Assembly (NCBI RefSeq): GCF_000974985.2
Contig: NZ_LAVA02000003.1
Span: forward strand, 124,001-188,000
Length of the DNA: 64,000 nucleotides
From: Streptomyces mangrovisoli
Lineage (GTDB): Bacteria; Actinomycetota; Actinomycetes; Streptomycetales; Streptomycetaceae
Direction of reading: 5' to 3'
Positions within the stretch are counted from its first letter, which is position 1. Every line of letters begins with the position of its first letter. Shown here in pieces: positions 27,921-32,598 of the stretch. Position numbers and translations under genes: made by a program. Below the pieces are notes generated by a model, which saw nothing but the letters and a program-made list of their open reading frames with translations, had not been told where the DNA came from and searched no databases.

Positions 27921-28976
27921 ATGGCCGGGCACAGGACGGAGGACCATCCACACGGCGCCGACCGGTTGTGCGACGCCGGGGACCGCGTGTACTCGCGGGC
28001 GGTGCGCCGGGGCCGCGTGGCGCGTGAGGACGCCGAGCGGGTGCCCTGCCTGCTGGAGCTGGCGCTGCTGCACCCCGACCCCGACGACATGGACTGGCTG
28101 GTGCCGACCTCCCCGCAGGAGGTCATGACCCGGCTGCTGCGCGGGGTCTACGACGAGGTCACGGCGAGCCACGGTCGCGTCGGTTCGGCGGTCGCCGCCG
28201 TCGAGTGGTACGCCGGGCTCGGCGGCCGCGTCCAGGCCTCGGCGGCCTCCGCCGAGGGCGCGGGCGCCGCGATCCGGGTCCTCGACGGACTCTCCCGCAT
28301 CCAGGCCGCGATGGACGAGGCGACCGAGGCGTGCACCACCGAGGTGCTCACGGTGCAGCCCGGCGGCATCCGCCGCGAGGACGAGCTCACCGAGGGCCTG
28401 CACCGGGCGCTGGCGCTGCGCGGCCGCGGGGTGCGGATGCGCGACCTGTACACGCATGTCGCCCGGCACGGCCAGGGCCTGCTCAACTACCTGGAGCTGA
28501 TGGGCGACACGGTCGAGGCGCGCACCCTCGACGAGGTGATCGACCGGCTGATCCTCTTCGACCGCACGGTCGCCTTCATCCCCGCCAACTCCGATCGCAC
28601 GATGGCCCTGGAGCTGCGCCACCCGGCGCTCGTCGGCTATCTGCTCACCGTCTTCGAGCGGCTGTGGCGGCTGGCCATCCCGCTGACCGCGCCGCTGCCG
28701 GACACCGGCATCGAGGGCATCTCGCACCGGGAGCAGTCGATCGCCGCGCTGCTGGCGGAGGGCCACCAGGACGCGGTGATCGCCGAGCGGCTCGGCATCA
28801 GCGTGCGCACCTGCCGCGCGCACATCGCGCGCCTGTCGGAGACGCTGGGCGCGGCGAGCCGTACCCAGCTGGGCGTGCGCATCGCGCAGGTGGGCCTGGA
28901 CGGGCCGCCGCGGCCGGCCGGACCCCAGGTCGCCTCGGTCATCCTTCCTGATCGAGGATCCCCGACCGCGCGATGA
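27921..28976 (+). CDS. Transcriptional regulator, TrmB-like sensor plus LuxR-type HTH (paralogue D)
   Basis: A 351-residue protein. ATG 27921 is favoured, GTG 27909 is also in frame. The N-terminus (AGDRVYSRAVRRGRVAREDAERVPCLLELALL, about 18-50) is shared by all four paralogues. The middle (EVLTVQPGG... to FDRTVAFIPANSDRTMALELRHPALVGYLL, about 140-245) has the look of the TrmB sugar-sensor/PLD-like fold. The C-terminal HTH is LuxR-type (SHREQSIAALLAEGHQDAVIAERLGISVRTCRAHIARL, about 268-306). Convergent with paralogue C, the 3' ends overlapping by 38 bases. Effector unknown. Confidence 0.85.
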   Translation: MAGHRTEDHPHGADRLCDAGDRVYSRAVRRGRVAREDAERVPCLLELALLHPDPDDMDWLVPTSPQEVMTRLLRGVYDEVTASHGRVGSAVAAVEWYAGLGGRVQASAASAEGAGAAIRVLDGLSRIQAAMDEATEACTTEVLTVQPGGIRREDELTEGLHRALALRGRGVRMRDLYTHVARHGQGLLNYLELMGDTVEARTLDEVIDRLILFDRTVAFIPANSDRTMALELRHPALVGYLLTVFERLWRLAIPLTAPLPDTGIEGISHREQSIAALLAEGHQDAVIAERLGISVRTCRAHIARLSETLGAASRTQLGVRIAQVGLDGPPRPAGPQVASVILPDRGSPTAR

Positions 28977-29928
28977 GGTAGCCGAGCTGGGCGCGGCTCT
29001 CGCTGCCGAGGGTGGCGGCGAGCTTGGCGATGTGGACCCGGGCGGTGCGCACGTTCATGCCGAGGCGGTTCGCGATGACGGCGTCGGTGTGGCCCTCGAC
29101 CAGCAGGGCGGCGATGGCCCGCTGGCGCGGGGTGACCCCGCCGAGCGTGGGCTGCCGTTCGGCCCGCGGGTACATGGGCGTGGCCAGCCGCCACAGCCGG
29201 TCGAAGGTGGTCACGAAGTAGGCGATCAGCGCCGGGTGGCGGATCTCCAGGGCCAGGCTGCCGTCGGCGTCGGCGGGGATGAAGGCGGCGGCCCGGTCGA
29301 CCACGATGAGCCGGTCGGTCAGCTCGTCCAGGGTGCGGGCCTCGACGTCGCCGCGCAGCATCTCGCAGTTGGCCATGATGGCCAGGGAGTGGCGCTGGGT
29401 GTGCTGGTAGAGGGTGCGGATGCGGCAGCCGCGGTCGAGCAGGGCCTGGTCGCGGGCGCGGGCGCGGGCCCGCGCGAGTTCGGTGCGGCTCTCGTCGTAG
29501 TGGGCGTGCGGCTGGATGCACAGGGTCTCGTGCTCCGCCTCCACCATGGCCGCGGTGATCGCCTCGTTGATCCGGTCGGTGCCGCTGAGCACCGTGAGGG
29601 CCTGGGTGCCCGGCGCGGGTCCGGGCGGTCCGCCGGCCCGCAGCAGCCGCTCGAAGGTCCCCGCGAGCCGTTCCTCGCGCCGCCGTTCGTCGGCGATGCG
29701 GGTCGCCGAGGCGCGCAGCAGCCGGTGCAGTGCGACGGCCGGGTCCACGGGCTCGAGCCGGTGCATGTCGTCGACGGCCGGCTGGAGCAGCCCGAAGTCC
29801 AGCAGACAGGGCGCCTCTTCGGCCCGTGTGACACCGACCCGGCCCTCGTGCAGGGCGAGTTCGTAGAGCTTCTCCCCGGCGGGGCACAGCTCCTCCATGC
29901 CGTGCGGCGCATGCGCCGACGCGCTCAT
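28939..29928 (-). CDS. Transcriptional regulator, TrmB-like sensor plus LuxR-type HTH (paralogue C)
   Basis: A 329-residue paralogue that starts MSASAHAPHGMEELCPAG. GGAGA lies about six bases before the ATG, which also overlaps the stop of paralogue B by four bases. The sensor segment ETLCIQPHAHYDESRTELARARARARDQALLDRGCRIRTLYQHTQRHS contains an unusual run of Arg-Ala repeats. The HTH (TPRQRAIAALLVEGHTDAVIANRLGMNVRTARVHIAKL) is near-identical to that of B, so the two may share DNA targets or form heterodimers. Third gene of a three-gene operon read leftward from 31938. Confidence 0.87.
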   Translation of the reverse strand: MSASAHAPHGMEELCPAGEKLYELALHEGRVGVTRAEEAPCLLDFGLLQPAVDDMHRLEPVDPAVALHRLLRASATRIADERRREERLAGTFERLLRAGGPPGPAPGTQALTVLSGTDRINEAITAAMVEAEHETLCIQPHAHYDESRTELARARARARDQALLDRGCRIRTLYQHTQRHSLAIMANCEMLRGDVEARTLDELTDRLIVVDRAAAFIPADADGSLALEIRHPALIAYFVTTFDRLWRLATPMYPRAERQPTLGGVTPRQRAIAALLVEGHTDAVIANRLGMNVRTARVHIAKLAATLGSESRAQLGYLIARSGILDQEG

Positions 29929-30905
29929 GACAGGTCTCCATCCGGTTTCAGGATGCCCGACTCCGCTATGAGGTAGCCGAGTTGGGCGCGGCTCTCGCTG
30001 CCGAGGGTCGCGGCGAGCTTGGCGATGTGCAGGCGCGCGGTGCGTACGTTCATGCCGAGGCGGTCGGCGATGACGGCGTCGGTGAGGCCCTCCACGAGCA
30101 GGCGGGCGATGGCGCGCTGGCGCGTGGTGACCCCGTCCCGGACGGGCTGGTGCTCGGGGGTGGGCAGCAGCGGCGTGGCCAGCCGCCACAGCCGGTCGAA
30201 GGCGGAGACCAGGAAGCCGACCAGGGCCGGGTGGCGGATCTCCAGGGCGAGGGTGCGGTCGGACTTGCCGGGCACGAAGGCGACGGTCCGGTCGAGCACG
30301 ATCAGGCGGTCGGTGACCTCGTCGAGGGTGCGGACCTCGTAGTCCCCGGTGAGCTGTTCGTAGTGGTCCAGGACGAACGGGGAGTGGCGCTGGGTGTGCT
30401 GGTAGAGCGTGCGTAAGCGGCCGCCCGCGGACAGGAAGCGCTGCTCCTTGGCGAGCGCCTCGGTCAGCGCGGTCTGCGAGCGGCGGCCGGGCTGGATGGC
30501 CAGCGCCTCCTCGTGGGAGTGCTCGATCGCGTCGGTGATGGCGGCGGTGATGTGCTCCAGGCCGTCGAGCACGGTGATCGCGAGCGGGTCGACGCCGGGC
30601 ACCACCTGGGCGTCGATGGTCAGGAACGGGGCAAACACGTCCGCGAGCCGGGTCTCGCGCCGGCGCTGCTGGGCGATCGACTCCTCGATGGTGCCGAGCA
30701 GCCGGGGCAGCACCACGGAGGGGGCCACCGGGCGCAGCTGCCCCGGGTCGGCGCGGTCGTGCTGGAGCAGGCCGAAGCCCAGCAGGCAGGGGGCGTCCTC
30801 GGCGTCGGCGTCCGGCACGCTCCCCTCGCGCAGGGCACGCGCGTAGACACCGCGCCCGGCCTCGCACAGCTCCTCCACCCCGTGGTCGTGCGTCCTCGCC
30901 GTCAC
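29925..30905 (-). CDS. Transcriptional regulator, TrmB-like sensor plus LuxR-type HTH (paralogue B)
   Basis: A 326-residue paralogue with a GTG start (30903-30905), 22 bases after the stop of paralogue A. The order is the same: VEELCEAGRGVYARALREG at the N-terminus, QPGRRSQTALTEALAKEQRFLSAGGRLRTLYQHTQRHS in the sensor, FVPGKSDRTLALEIRHPALVGFLVSAFDRLWRLATPL, then TRQRAIARLLVEGLTDAVIADRLGMNVRTARLHIAKL. The C-terminal ATLGSESRAQLGYLIAESGIL is shared with C. No membrane segment. The effector pocket differs most among the four, which suggests different signals for each. Confidence 0.87.
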   Translation of the reverse strand: MTARTHDHGVEELCEAGRGVYARALREGSVPDADAEDAPCLLGFGLLQHDRADPGQLRPVAPSVVLPRLLGTIEESIAQQRRRETRLADVFAPFLTIDAQVVPGVDPLAITVLDGLEHITAAITDAIEHSHEEALAIQPGRRSQTALTEALAKEQRFLSAGGRLRTLYQHTQRHSPFVLDHYEQLTGDYEVRTLDEVTDRLIVLDRTVAFVPGKSDRTLALEIRHPALVGFLVSAFDRLWRLATPLLPTPEHQPVRDGVTTRQRAIARLLVEGLTDAVIADRLGMNVRTARLHIAKLAATLGSESRAQLGYLIAESGILKPDGDLS

Positions 30906-30927
30906 CCCTGCCGCCCCCCCGTTCGGC

Positions 30928-31938
30928 TCACTGATCCTGGTTCAGGATCCCGGACTGGGCTATGAGGTAGCCGAGCTGCGCCCGGCTGCCGCTGCCCAGG
31001 ACCTGGGCCAGCTTGGCGATATGGGCCCGGCAGGTGCGCACGTTCATGCCCAGGCGGCGCGCTATGGCCTCGTCCACATGGCCCTCCACCAGCAGCTTGG
31101 CGATGGAGTGCTGGATGTCGGTGATGCCGTCGGGCGCGGTCTCGTAGGGGGCGCCGGCGCTCAGCGGCACGGCGCGGCTCCACATGAACTCGAACACCTT
31201 GATCAGGTAGCGGACCAGGCCCGGGTGGCGCAGTTCGAGGGCGACCTGGCGGTCGTCCTGGGTGGGGATGAAGGCGACCGTCTCGTCGCAGATGATGAGG
31301 CGCTCCACCAGCTCGTCGATGGTGCGGTACTCGGCCTTGCCGTCGGCGAACTTCTCCACCCAGGCGATCCGCTCGGGGCTGTGGCGGGCGGTGTGCTGGT
31401 AGAGGGTGCGGATCCGCACGCCGCGCTCGATCAGCGGTTTGTCGCGGTCCAGCGCCTCCACCAGCCGGCGCTCCGGGTGGCGCTGGCTGGGCTGGACGGT
31501 GAGCATCTCGTTCTGGCACTGCGCTATGGCGAGGTCGAGCGCGGCGTTGATGCGGTCGAGCCCCTCCAATACGGTGATCGAATGCGTCGACTCCGTCACC
31601 TGCGCGCTGAGCGCCATGAACGGCTCGAATGCGTCGGCGAGCTCGATGGACAGCCGCCTGCGTTCGGTGATCTCGCGTTCGACGGGGTTGAGCCGCTGGG
31701 CCAGGGCCACCGAGGGGGGAACCGGGCGCAGCCAGCCGGCGTCGTCCGGATCGGGATGGAGCAGGGCGAATTCGATCAGGCAGGGGGCGTTTTCCACGTC
31801 CGCGCGGGCGATACGTCCCGTGCGCAGTGCGTTCGCGTAAAGACGGCCGCCCTCCGCACACAGCTCCGTCACCGCATGGGGATGCGTAGCTTTAGTCCGA
31901 TTCGTTGCCAAATCTCCACCCCCCAGGGTCCTGAACAT
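30928..31938 (-). CDS. Transcriptional regulator, TrmB-like sensor plus LuxR-type HTH (paralogue A)
   Basis: A 336-residue protein, first of three in a leftward operon. The ATG at 31936-31938 lacks a ribosome site. A TTG at 31909-31911, just after GGTGGAG, would start the protein at ATNRTKATHPHA and align better with the paralogues, so the true start may be 27 bases later. Domains are as in the others: N-terminal TELCAEGGRLYANALRTG, sensor EMLTVQPSQRHPERRLVEALDRDKPLIERGVRIRTLYQHTARHS, and LuxR-type HTH near 260-320. It is divergent from the DSVWS-repeat peptide gene and separated from it by only 86 bases, making it the best candidate for that gene's regulator. Confidence 0.85.
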   Translation of the reverse strand: MFRTLGGGDLATNRTKATHPHAVTELCAEGGRLYANALRTGRIARADVENAPCLIEFALLHPDPDDAGWLRPVPPSVALAQRLNPVEREITERRRLSIELADAFEPFMALSAQVTESTHSITVLEGLDRINAALDLAIAQCQNEMLTVQPSQRHPERRLVEALDRDKPLIERGVRIRTLYQHTARHSPERIAWVEKFADGKAEYRTIDELVERLIICDETVAFIPTQDDRQVALELRHPGLVRYLIKVFEFMWSRAVPLSAGAPYETAPDGITDIQHSIAKLLVEGHVDEAIARRLGMNVRTCRAHIAKLAQVLGSGSRAQLGYLIAQSGILNQDQ

Positions 31939-31949
31939 GCAGGAACATG
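31933..31949. promoter_or_regulatory. GAACATG direct repeat in the regulator-peptide divergent promoter
   Basis: GAACATG at 31933-31939 and again at 31943-31949, ten bases apart, one helical turn. The first copy covers the ATG of paralogue A. A same-face binding site that controls both divergent genes is a reasonable reading but is inference. Confidence 0.4.
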
Positions 31950-32024
31950 ATGCACCGATCGTGTGGCCATGACGTGCCCGAATGAGCCATCGTCTTACTC
32001 GACGGGGGAAGAGGGGACCTTCAA

Positions 32025-32261
32025 GTGAGGACGAAGCCGACTATGCGTAAGAGAATGCTTCGCTCGGTGCTTGTCGCCGCCTTCTCCGCCGTTGCGGCCT
32101 TCGCTACGCTGAGTGGCCTTTCGGGCGCCAAGGCGGCGACGCTGGCCGACAGTGTGTGGTCGTCGGCGGCTCCGGCCGACAGTGTGTGGTCGGCGCCGGC
32201 TCCGACCGTGGTGGTCGGTGGCGACACTTCCGACGGCACGGACGACAGCGTGTGGAGTTGA
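32025..32261 (+). CDS. Secreted peptide precursor with three DSVWS motifs
   Basis: A 78-residue precursor. GTG 32025 has AGGGGA seven bases upstream; ATG 32043 is the alternative and also has GAGGAC. The N-terminus MRKRMLRSVLVAAFSAVAAFATLSG is a Sec signal peptide, probably cut at AKA-A. The mature part of about 41 residues contains DSVWS three times: after ATLA, after SAAPA, and as the last five residues before the stop (TDDSVWS). Linkers are Ala/Pro-rich, then Gly/Asp/Thr-rich. There is no Cys, no lanthipeptide-type leader and no LPXTG anchor. The next gene begins one base after its stop. The regularity suggests proteolytic release or modification at each motif, as in repeat-containing signal peptides. 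No known family recognised. Confidence 0.82.
   Translation: MRTKPTMRKRMLRSVLVAAFSAVAAFATLSGLSGAKAATLADSVWSSAAPADSVWSAPAPTVVVGGDTSDGTDDSVWS
32145..32204 (+). repeat. 30-bp tandem repeat encoding ADSVWS units
   Basis: Two head-to-tail copies, 32145-32174 and 32175-32204, share gccgacagtgtgtggtcg and end ggctccg; they encode ADSVWSSAAP and ADSVWSAPAP. A third motif copy (32244-32258) uses different codons (gacagcgtgtggagt), so its peptide sequence is conserved despite nucleotide drift. Confidence 0.9.
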
Positions 32262-32262
32262 C

Positions 32263-32598
32263 GTGACCACTCCTCCTGACGACCGGTCCTTCCGGCGCGA
32301 GATGGCCACGGCCTACCGCTCGGGCTGGCACTTCATCGACCTGGTCACCGCCATCCCCCACAGTGGTGACTCGTTGATGGTGACGGTCTTCGGCGAACCG
32401 GTGGTCGTGACCCGCGACGAGGACGAGGACGTAAGGGCGTACCGGTGCCTGCGCCGGCCGCGCGGAGCGCCGCAGCCCGTGCGGTGCGCCGTACGGTACG
32501 GAATGATCTTTGTGAATCTGGACCAACGAGACCACCGGCTGGCCGAGCCGGACACCTCGGACCTGCGGACCATCTCGGCCACCCCCCGCAGTGCCTGA
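32263..32598 (+). CDS. Rieske-like protein lacking cluster ligands, coupled to the DSVWS peptide gene
   Basis: A 111-residue cytoplasmic protein starting at GTG 32263, with GGAG five bases upstream inside the end of the peptide gene. SGWHFIDLVTAIPHSGDSLMVTVFGEPVVVTRDEDEDVRAYRC resembles the start of the Rieske domain of aromatic-ring hydroxylases (G-W-[YF]-x-V... G-D-x-L-x-V-x-[LF]-G-E-P-[LV]-V-x-x-R-D). After it RCLRRPRGAPQPVRCAVRYGMIFVNL replaces the C-x-H...C-x-x-H cluster loops: no histidine remains in the loop region and the two Cys are wrongly spaced. It is therefore a degenerate, probably cluster-free fold. It could bind or chaperone the peptide or be a remnant. The tight linkage to the peptide gene argues for a joint role. 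Confidence 0.7.
   Translation: MTTPPDDRSFRREMATAYRSGWHFIDLVTAIPHSGDSLMVTVFGEPVVVTRDEDEDVRAYRCLRRPRGAPQPVRCAVRYGMIFVNLDQRDHRLAEPDTSDLRTISATPRSA

Follow-up and report, generated by a model that had tools for sequence, protein, structure and literature searches.

The window, a 64,000-nucleotide stretch of the Streptomyces mangrovisoli genome, carries a small gene for a leader-bearing precursor with three DSVWS pentapeptides and, divergent from it, a gene for a regulator with a TrmB-like sensor and a LuxR-type helix-turn-helix (HTH). Comparison across the genus suggests, with a probability of about 0.8, that the pentapeptide belongs to a peptide pheromone which is exported, re-imported and sensed by this regulator as its cytoplasmic receptor.

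Precursor Gene and Its Repeats

The precursor gene possesses the following features:
32025 to 32261, forward strand: proposed pheromone precursor, an ORF of 78 amino acids with a GTG start and homologues in Streptomyces
32025 to 32147, forward strand: Sec-type leader, judged from the sequence, with a basic n-region RTKPTMRKRMLR, a hydrophobic core and small residues up to ..TLA before the first DSVWS
32148 to 32162, forward strand: DSVWS copy 1 (residues 42-46)
32178 to 32192, forward strand: DSVWS copy 2 (residues 52-56), in a 30-bp tandem repeat with copy 1
32244 to 32258, forward strand: DSVWS copy 3 (residues 74-78), the exact C-terminus, in different codons

A preliminary description of this DNA had reported a 78-residue precursor ORF with three copies of DSVWS, the last forming the exact C-terminus, and the coordinates agree exactly with it. 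It had also placed two of the copies within a 30-bp tandem repeat and described the third as recoded, both of which are borne out by the sequence; the repeat units (32145-32174 and 32175-32204) hold copies 1 and 2, while copy 3 is encoded by GAC AGC GTG TGG AGT as compared with GAC AGT GTG TGG TCG. Upstream of the GTG start lies GAGGGG, a likely ribosome-binding site, and the composition of the leader points to probable secretion of the precursor by the Sec pathway. As had been claimed, a linked ORF of 111 residues begins one base past the precursor stop (32261 to 32263).

Precursor Family across Streptomyces

A search of genomes identified relatives of the precursor in 206 of 296 Streptomyces genomes. 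The leader is conserved in these homologues (VRTKPTMRKRMLRSVLVAAFSAVVAFG...) and the remainder is hypervariable, save for a recurring pentapeptide with Trp at position 4. Across the 206 parsed precursors the pentapeptide has the consensus [D/N]xxWx and occurs as 69 types in 1-10 copies, with a single copy in 59 precursors. It is nearly identical within a species and the word varies from species to species, examples being DSVWS (three copies, the present precursor), DSIWS (two), DTQWS (two), DSSWG (three), DTRWD (four), DSGWT (seven), DIAWS (nine), DVGW (seven) and NSSWP (two). Position 5 varies inside some species (DSSWV/L/A), and the letters found at position 2 across the family are S, T, V, L, I, and P. 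The pentapeptides of loci L173, L179, L131, and L135, which a script had parsed wrongly, were read by eye.

The last motif forms the exact C-terminus in 77 of the 206 homologues, and in 86 the residue just before the first motif is Ala and the one at -3 is small, VRA being a frequent form. The preliminary description had proposed looking for the repeat across Streptomyces, and it is indeed kept in the homologues, with letters that differ by species. Because relatives are present in 206 of the 296 genomes and conserve a pentapeptide whose letters vary, the precursor is not a chance ORF. The precursor of locus L134 (1075-1504) has nine DIAWS copies with near-constant spacers and resembles the yeast alpha-factor precursor. 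A search of the window's own genome for further precursors beside paralogous regulators found none.

Selection on the Pentapeptide

Copies within one precursor were compared for the 88 multi-copy precursors. Identity at positions -3, -2, -1, Trp, and +1 was 0.99, 1.00, 0.97, 1.00, and 0.82 respectively, as against 0.93, 0.49, 0.20, 1.00, and 0.16 when copies were shuffled between species. Beyond these five residues the similarity ends sharply, being equal to background at -4 and 0.31 versus 0.17 at +2. Of the 446 pairs of copies that share a core, 294 differed synonymously in at least one of three codons. Recent duplication does not explain why the copies are identical, since they agree over only five residues and vary in their synonymous codons. 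The selection on the peptide which had been suspected from the three DSVWS copies alone is thus upheld by the conservation of five residues between copies that use different synonymous codons.

The gene could also be thought to encode a repetitive secreted surface peptide, its repeats homogenised by slippage or gene conversion and without meaning as a signal, and the 30-bp tandem repeat in the window and the copy number of 1-10 are what such a peptide might display. This is extremely improbable, however, given that copy identity is limited to five residues, that synonymous sites differ and that a residue of the neighbouring regulator co-varies with the peptide (see below).

Rieske-like Partner

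The ORF linked to the precursor is as follows:
32263 to 32598, forward strand: ligand-less Rieske-like partner of 111 amino acids, translationally linked to the precursor and assigned from profile matches

In profile searches the partner aligns with the N-terminal part of Rieske oxygenase alpha subunits (NCBIfam GbcA, E-value 2.6e-7; PDB 9jp5, E-value 4e-5), and its match to the Pfam Rieske domain lies below the cut-off (E-value 0.012). In the alignment to the oxygenase, the partner has R-[RK]-P at the site of the C-x-H ligand pair, and the region of the second pair, C-x2-H, is deleted, with about 10 residues in place of about 60. The Rieske-domain shape without Cys/His ligands noted in the preliminary description is therefore confirmed, as there is profile homology and neither half of the ligand set is present. 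The ligands are missing as well in all of the aligned Rieske-like relatives (27 relatives, 91-96% identity), and neither the partner nor the relatives aligned possess an oxygenase catalytic domain. A decayed isolated copy, named in that description as the outcome that would count against the pairing, is not what is seen, the aligned homologues also being without ligands.

In a family-wide sample the partner was present in 30 of 38 Streptomyces genomes, and outside Streptomyces the search of that sample matched only long Rieske oxygenase-like ORFs, and these weakly. A plasmid collection searched with the partner gave no match. The predicted structure of the partner is of low confidence (pLDDT 64), and none of the folds it matched reached significance. 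The partner (32263-32598) is strikingly conserved throughout the genus, including its C-terminal TPRSA. From these comparisons the Rieske-like protein is likely to be a conserved accessory, too invariant to be the receptor that determines specificity. The adjoining pair of precursor and partner described earlier thus stands, but with respect to specificity the divergent regulator, which had been missed, is the better candidate for a receptor.

The precursor is translationally coupled to a protein with oxygenase ancestry, which would suit a RiPP or antimicrobial with altered Trp or Ser, its modification helped, for example, by the linked Rieske-like protein. However, the partner and its aligned relatives are without cluster ligands and catalytic domain, the leader is of the Sec and not the RiPP type, position 2 of the pentapeptide is variable, and the gene that co-varies with the peptide encodes a transcription factor and not an immunity protein. 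No recognised RiPP enzyme set was found among the genes near the precursor in this window. A peptide modified on its Trp/Ser had been suggested as one possibility, nothing in the analysis supports it, and we consider this explanation very unlikely.

Divergent TrmB-LuxR Regulator and Its Locus

On the other side of the precursor the following features were identified:
30928 to 31938, reverse strand: divergent TrmB-LuxR regulator of 336 amino acids, the proposed receptor, with a sensor at about residues 121-255 and a LuxR-type HTH at 274-330 (profile, fold and co-variation)
29940 to 30911, reverse strand: paralogous TrmB-LuxR regulator, 50% identical to the proposed receptor and not co-varying with the peptide (partial r 0.02)
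31917 to 31954, no strand assigned: candidate promoter/operator block CACCCCCCAGGGTCCTGAACATGCAGGAACATGATGCA between the divergent genes, most positions at least 97% identical in 204 loci

The divergent regulator lies just upstream of the precursor in all sufficiently long loci bar one that is unclear. Its true start may be an internal TTG at 31911. The sensor is TrmB/phospholipase D (PLD)-like, with matches to TrmBL2 by profile (5box, E-value 9e-10) and by Foldseek (5bpd, E-value 3.6e-14), and contains no confident Pfam domain. Its HTH matches NarL by profile (1je8, E-value 6e-7) and Pfam GerE below the cut-off (E-value 0.003), the GerE HTH of a paralogous regulator being found by Pfam with an E-value of 1.7e-5. 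No tetratricopeptide repeat (TPR) was matched in the regulator by Pfam at E≤1. The structural model is moderate overall (pLDDT 79, pTM 0.46). Across loci the HTH is almost invariant and the sensor domain variable. Outside Streptomyces, the search for the regulator found distant relatives (34-37%) in one genus and none above threshold in another.

Four TrmB-LuxR paralogues form an array (27924-31938) between the hspR operon and clpB, and their number varies by species. The 38-bp block at 31917-31954 overlaps the earliest codon at which the regulator could start and contains CATG twice, ten bases apart. The nearest neighbours of the precursor are the Rieske-like fragment, an F420/PPOX-type oxidoreductase, ClpB and the regulators, with an ATP-grasp protein further off; none of the genes at the locus was recognised as encoding a permease or protease.

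Co-variation of Regulator and Pentapeptide

Whole genes were compared at 72 loci, with clpB distance serving as the yardstick of relatedness. At fixed clpB distance, sensor distance was correlated with pentapeptide distance (partial r 0.47-0.51, 0 of 999 permutations). Among pairs of species with a clpB distance below 0.08, sensor differences amount to 1-5% of residues where the pentapeptide core is the same and to 24-30% where it is different. The signal in DNA distance was 0.42 and 0.41 for the two halves of the sensor and 0.35 for the precursor leader, and was nearly absent from the HTH of the same regulator (0.09), the partner (0.09), the next regulator (0.02), and PPOX (0.08). As the signal is strong in the sensor and the precursor leader and not in the flanks, the exchanged unit is sensor plus precursor.

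This pattern raises the question of linkage, in which sensor and precursor would form one contiguous hypervariable stretch, exchanged through recombination in its conserved flanks, and the two products would not touch; the two are adjacent, and the leader, for which no contact is expected, correlates too (partial r 0.35). Evidence at the level of single residues tells against this explanation and makes it decidedly unlikely. The residue concerned is encoded as follows:
31504 to 31506, reverse strand: codon of regulator residue 145 (Met here), which is Met if and only if pentapeptide position 2 is Ser and is a predicted contact with that position

A corrected mutual-information scan of regulator columns against pentapeptide positions in 108 loci linked residue 145 with position 2, and a cluster of residues (152-162, 190, 230, and 127) with positions 3 and 5. 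In these initial loci Met145 was found in 71 of 71 with Ser and Val or Leu in all others, such that 108 of 108 fit. The Met145-Ser rule was fixed in writing before 100 further loci were examined. For the 64 new precursors first parsed, Ser was paired with Met in 34 of 34 and Thr with Val or Leu in 23 of 23, the Leu and Ile cases having Val or Ile; two wrongly parsed motifs fit the rule as well once read properly, and a letter new to position 2, Pro, pairs with Leu145. Overall, Met145 occurs if and only if position 2 is Ser with zero exceptions in about 210 distinct precursors, the further loci being from the same genus and hence not wholly independent.

With column 145 excluded from the construction of the regulator tree, both traits switch 25 times along it, with column 145 following position 2 through these switches. 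The supported independent pairs were concordant for residue 145 and position 2 in 13 of 13 cases (p 0.00024), while the runner-up among 202 variable columns reached 5.6 of 13. No such coupling was found in the columns of the leader, which are equally linked (z at most 5.4, versus 13.1). Furthermore, near-identical regulators whose peptides differ by one letter themselves differ at residues such as 160-164.

With near-identical regulators and a changed letter at position 3 (DSAW/DSVW, DTAW/DTVW, DSSW/DSTW), a repeated difference is seen at Ala/Gly162 and its neighbours, which suggests the region of residue 162 as a candidate second contact with the pentapeptide. Residues 160-162 of the regulator correspond to 31453-31461 in the window. 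The association of Ala or Gly at 162 with a small or large residue at position 3 is partly supported (V/I, 5 of 8 pairs). The associations of position 5 are in part clade effects, and one of Pro at +1 with Gln230 was dropped as a single event on the tree. In the structural model, the candidate contact residues are placed at or near strand ends and in the following loops of the PLD-like domain, plausibly a ligand pocket.

Proposed Pheromone System

The repeat-encoded pheromone first suggested for this precursor is strongly supported by the retention of the repeats, the selection on five residues and the co-variation of a neighbouring transcription factor. In the proposed sequence of events, the precursor would be exported through the Sec pathway, and signal peptidase and extracellular proteases would free short peptides containing [D/N]-x-x-W-x. 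These may then be taken up again, probably via an oligopeptide permease, and, as the co-variation suggests, would bind in the TrmB/PLD-like sensor pocket of the divergent regulator. The regulator would then switch genes and would very likely act on its own divergent promoter too, via the conserved intergenic block. As a pattern in the sequences, the pentapeptide is particular to the species and comes with a sensor to match, so that close relatives would represent different "pherotypes."

The peptide might instead act inside the cell on the divergent regulator, as its ligand or anti-regulator, and not serve as a signal between cells, with unexported precursor or its fragments feeding back. Co-variation implies an interaction of precursor and regulator and is silent on export, and no importer is seen at the locus. 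On the other hand, the Sec-type leader is conserved in the homologues read, an A-x-A-like site precedes the first motif in 86 of 206, and multiple short repeated units suggest the release of free peptide. An intracellular role is on this account unlikely.

Comparison with Known Systems

Yeast alpha-factor-type precursors carry several near-identical pheromone copies per secreted precursor, with a species-specific sequence. There is no sequence relation to these, however, and the receptor proposed here is a DNA-binding cytoplasmic protein and not a GPCR; in addition, the Streptomyces spacers vary and have no fixed processing site.

A closer likeness is to the RRNPP systems of Bacillota (Rap-Phr, PlcR-PapR, NprR-NprX, and AimR-AimP), in which likewise a small gene for a propeptide with a Sec leader adjoins the gene for a cytoplasmic receptor. 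The RRNPP receptors are of 250-500 amino acids, a range which the Streptomyces regulator (336 amino acids) fits, the peptide is very short and either C-terminal or repeated, and receptor and peptide diversify jointly. Unlike these receptors, the Streptomyces regulator is without TPR and has a TrmB/PLD-like sensor with a C-terminal LuxR HTH instead; the two genes are also divergent here and accompanied by a Rieske-like gene, and they occur in Streptomyces. The published definition of RRNPP requires a TPR receptor (PMC10075063), and as this feature is absent the Streptomyces system would work like RRNPP without being a member.

By profile and fold, the regulator has its sensor plus coiled-coil architecture in common with archaeal TrmB/TrmBL2. 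The solved sensor domain of TrmB is described as sugar-binding (title of 2f5t), whereas here there is an added LuxR HTH and a co-varying partner peptide.

The signals of Streptomyces have been described as small molecules (PMC10075063, PMC13220807), and gamma-butyrolactones are the sole signals mentioned for the genus in a 2026 review (PMC13220807). No description of the present system was found in the open-licence literature on peptide signalling, LuxR/TrmB regulators and the locus tags, subscription papers being outside the search. The combination of an exported peptide and a cytoplasmic receptor is already known; what sets the present system apart is its class of receptor, its Streptomyces host and a precursor that encodes repeats of the peptide.

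Synteny with Streptomyces coelicolor and Significance

The gene order of the window (clpB, PPOX, partner, regulator array, hspR-dnaJ-grpE-dnaK) matches that of SCO3661-SCO3671 in S. coelicolor, where SCO3661 is clpB and SCO3668-3671 are hspR, dnaJ, grpE, and dnaK (PMC2631018), and SCO3665 (327 amino acids) and SCO3666 belong to the LuxR family (PMC3282765). Because of this shared order, SCO3664 is the probable orthologue of the receptor. In PMC6585502, actinorhodin rose more than 50-fold upon insertions in SCO3664; for the tested regulator mutants of that study as a set, complementation restored 12 of 16, and SCO3664 is not described there as a peptide receptor.

With somewhat better than even odds, we see in these loci a genus-wide, species-specific pentapeptide language with a new class of cytoplasmic receptor and a residue-level code, controlling antibiotic production. 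Streptomyces is the source of many clinical antibiotics and is not known to employ peptide pheromones. The BldK permease of S. coelicolor imports a small peptide signal which, to our knowledge, has not been identified to date, and which offers a lead for comparison with the pentapeptide family. If true, the proposed system would add a peptide-receptor class unrelated to the RRNPP proteins, and its ligand-receptor co-evolution represents a natural experiment with 69 ligand types. A readable peptide word with a predictable receptor would also provide a cheap synthetic handle on development or antibiotic production.
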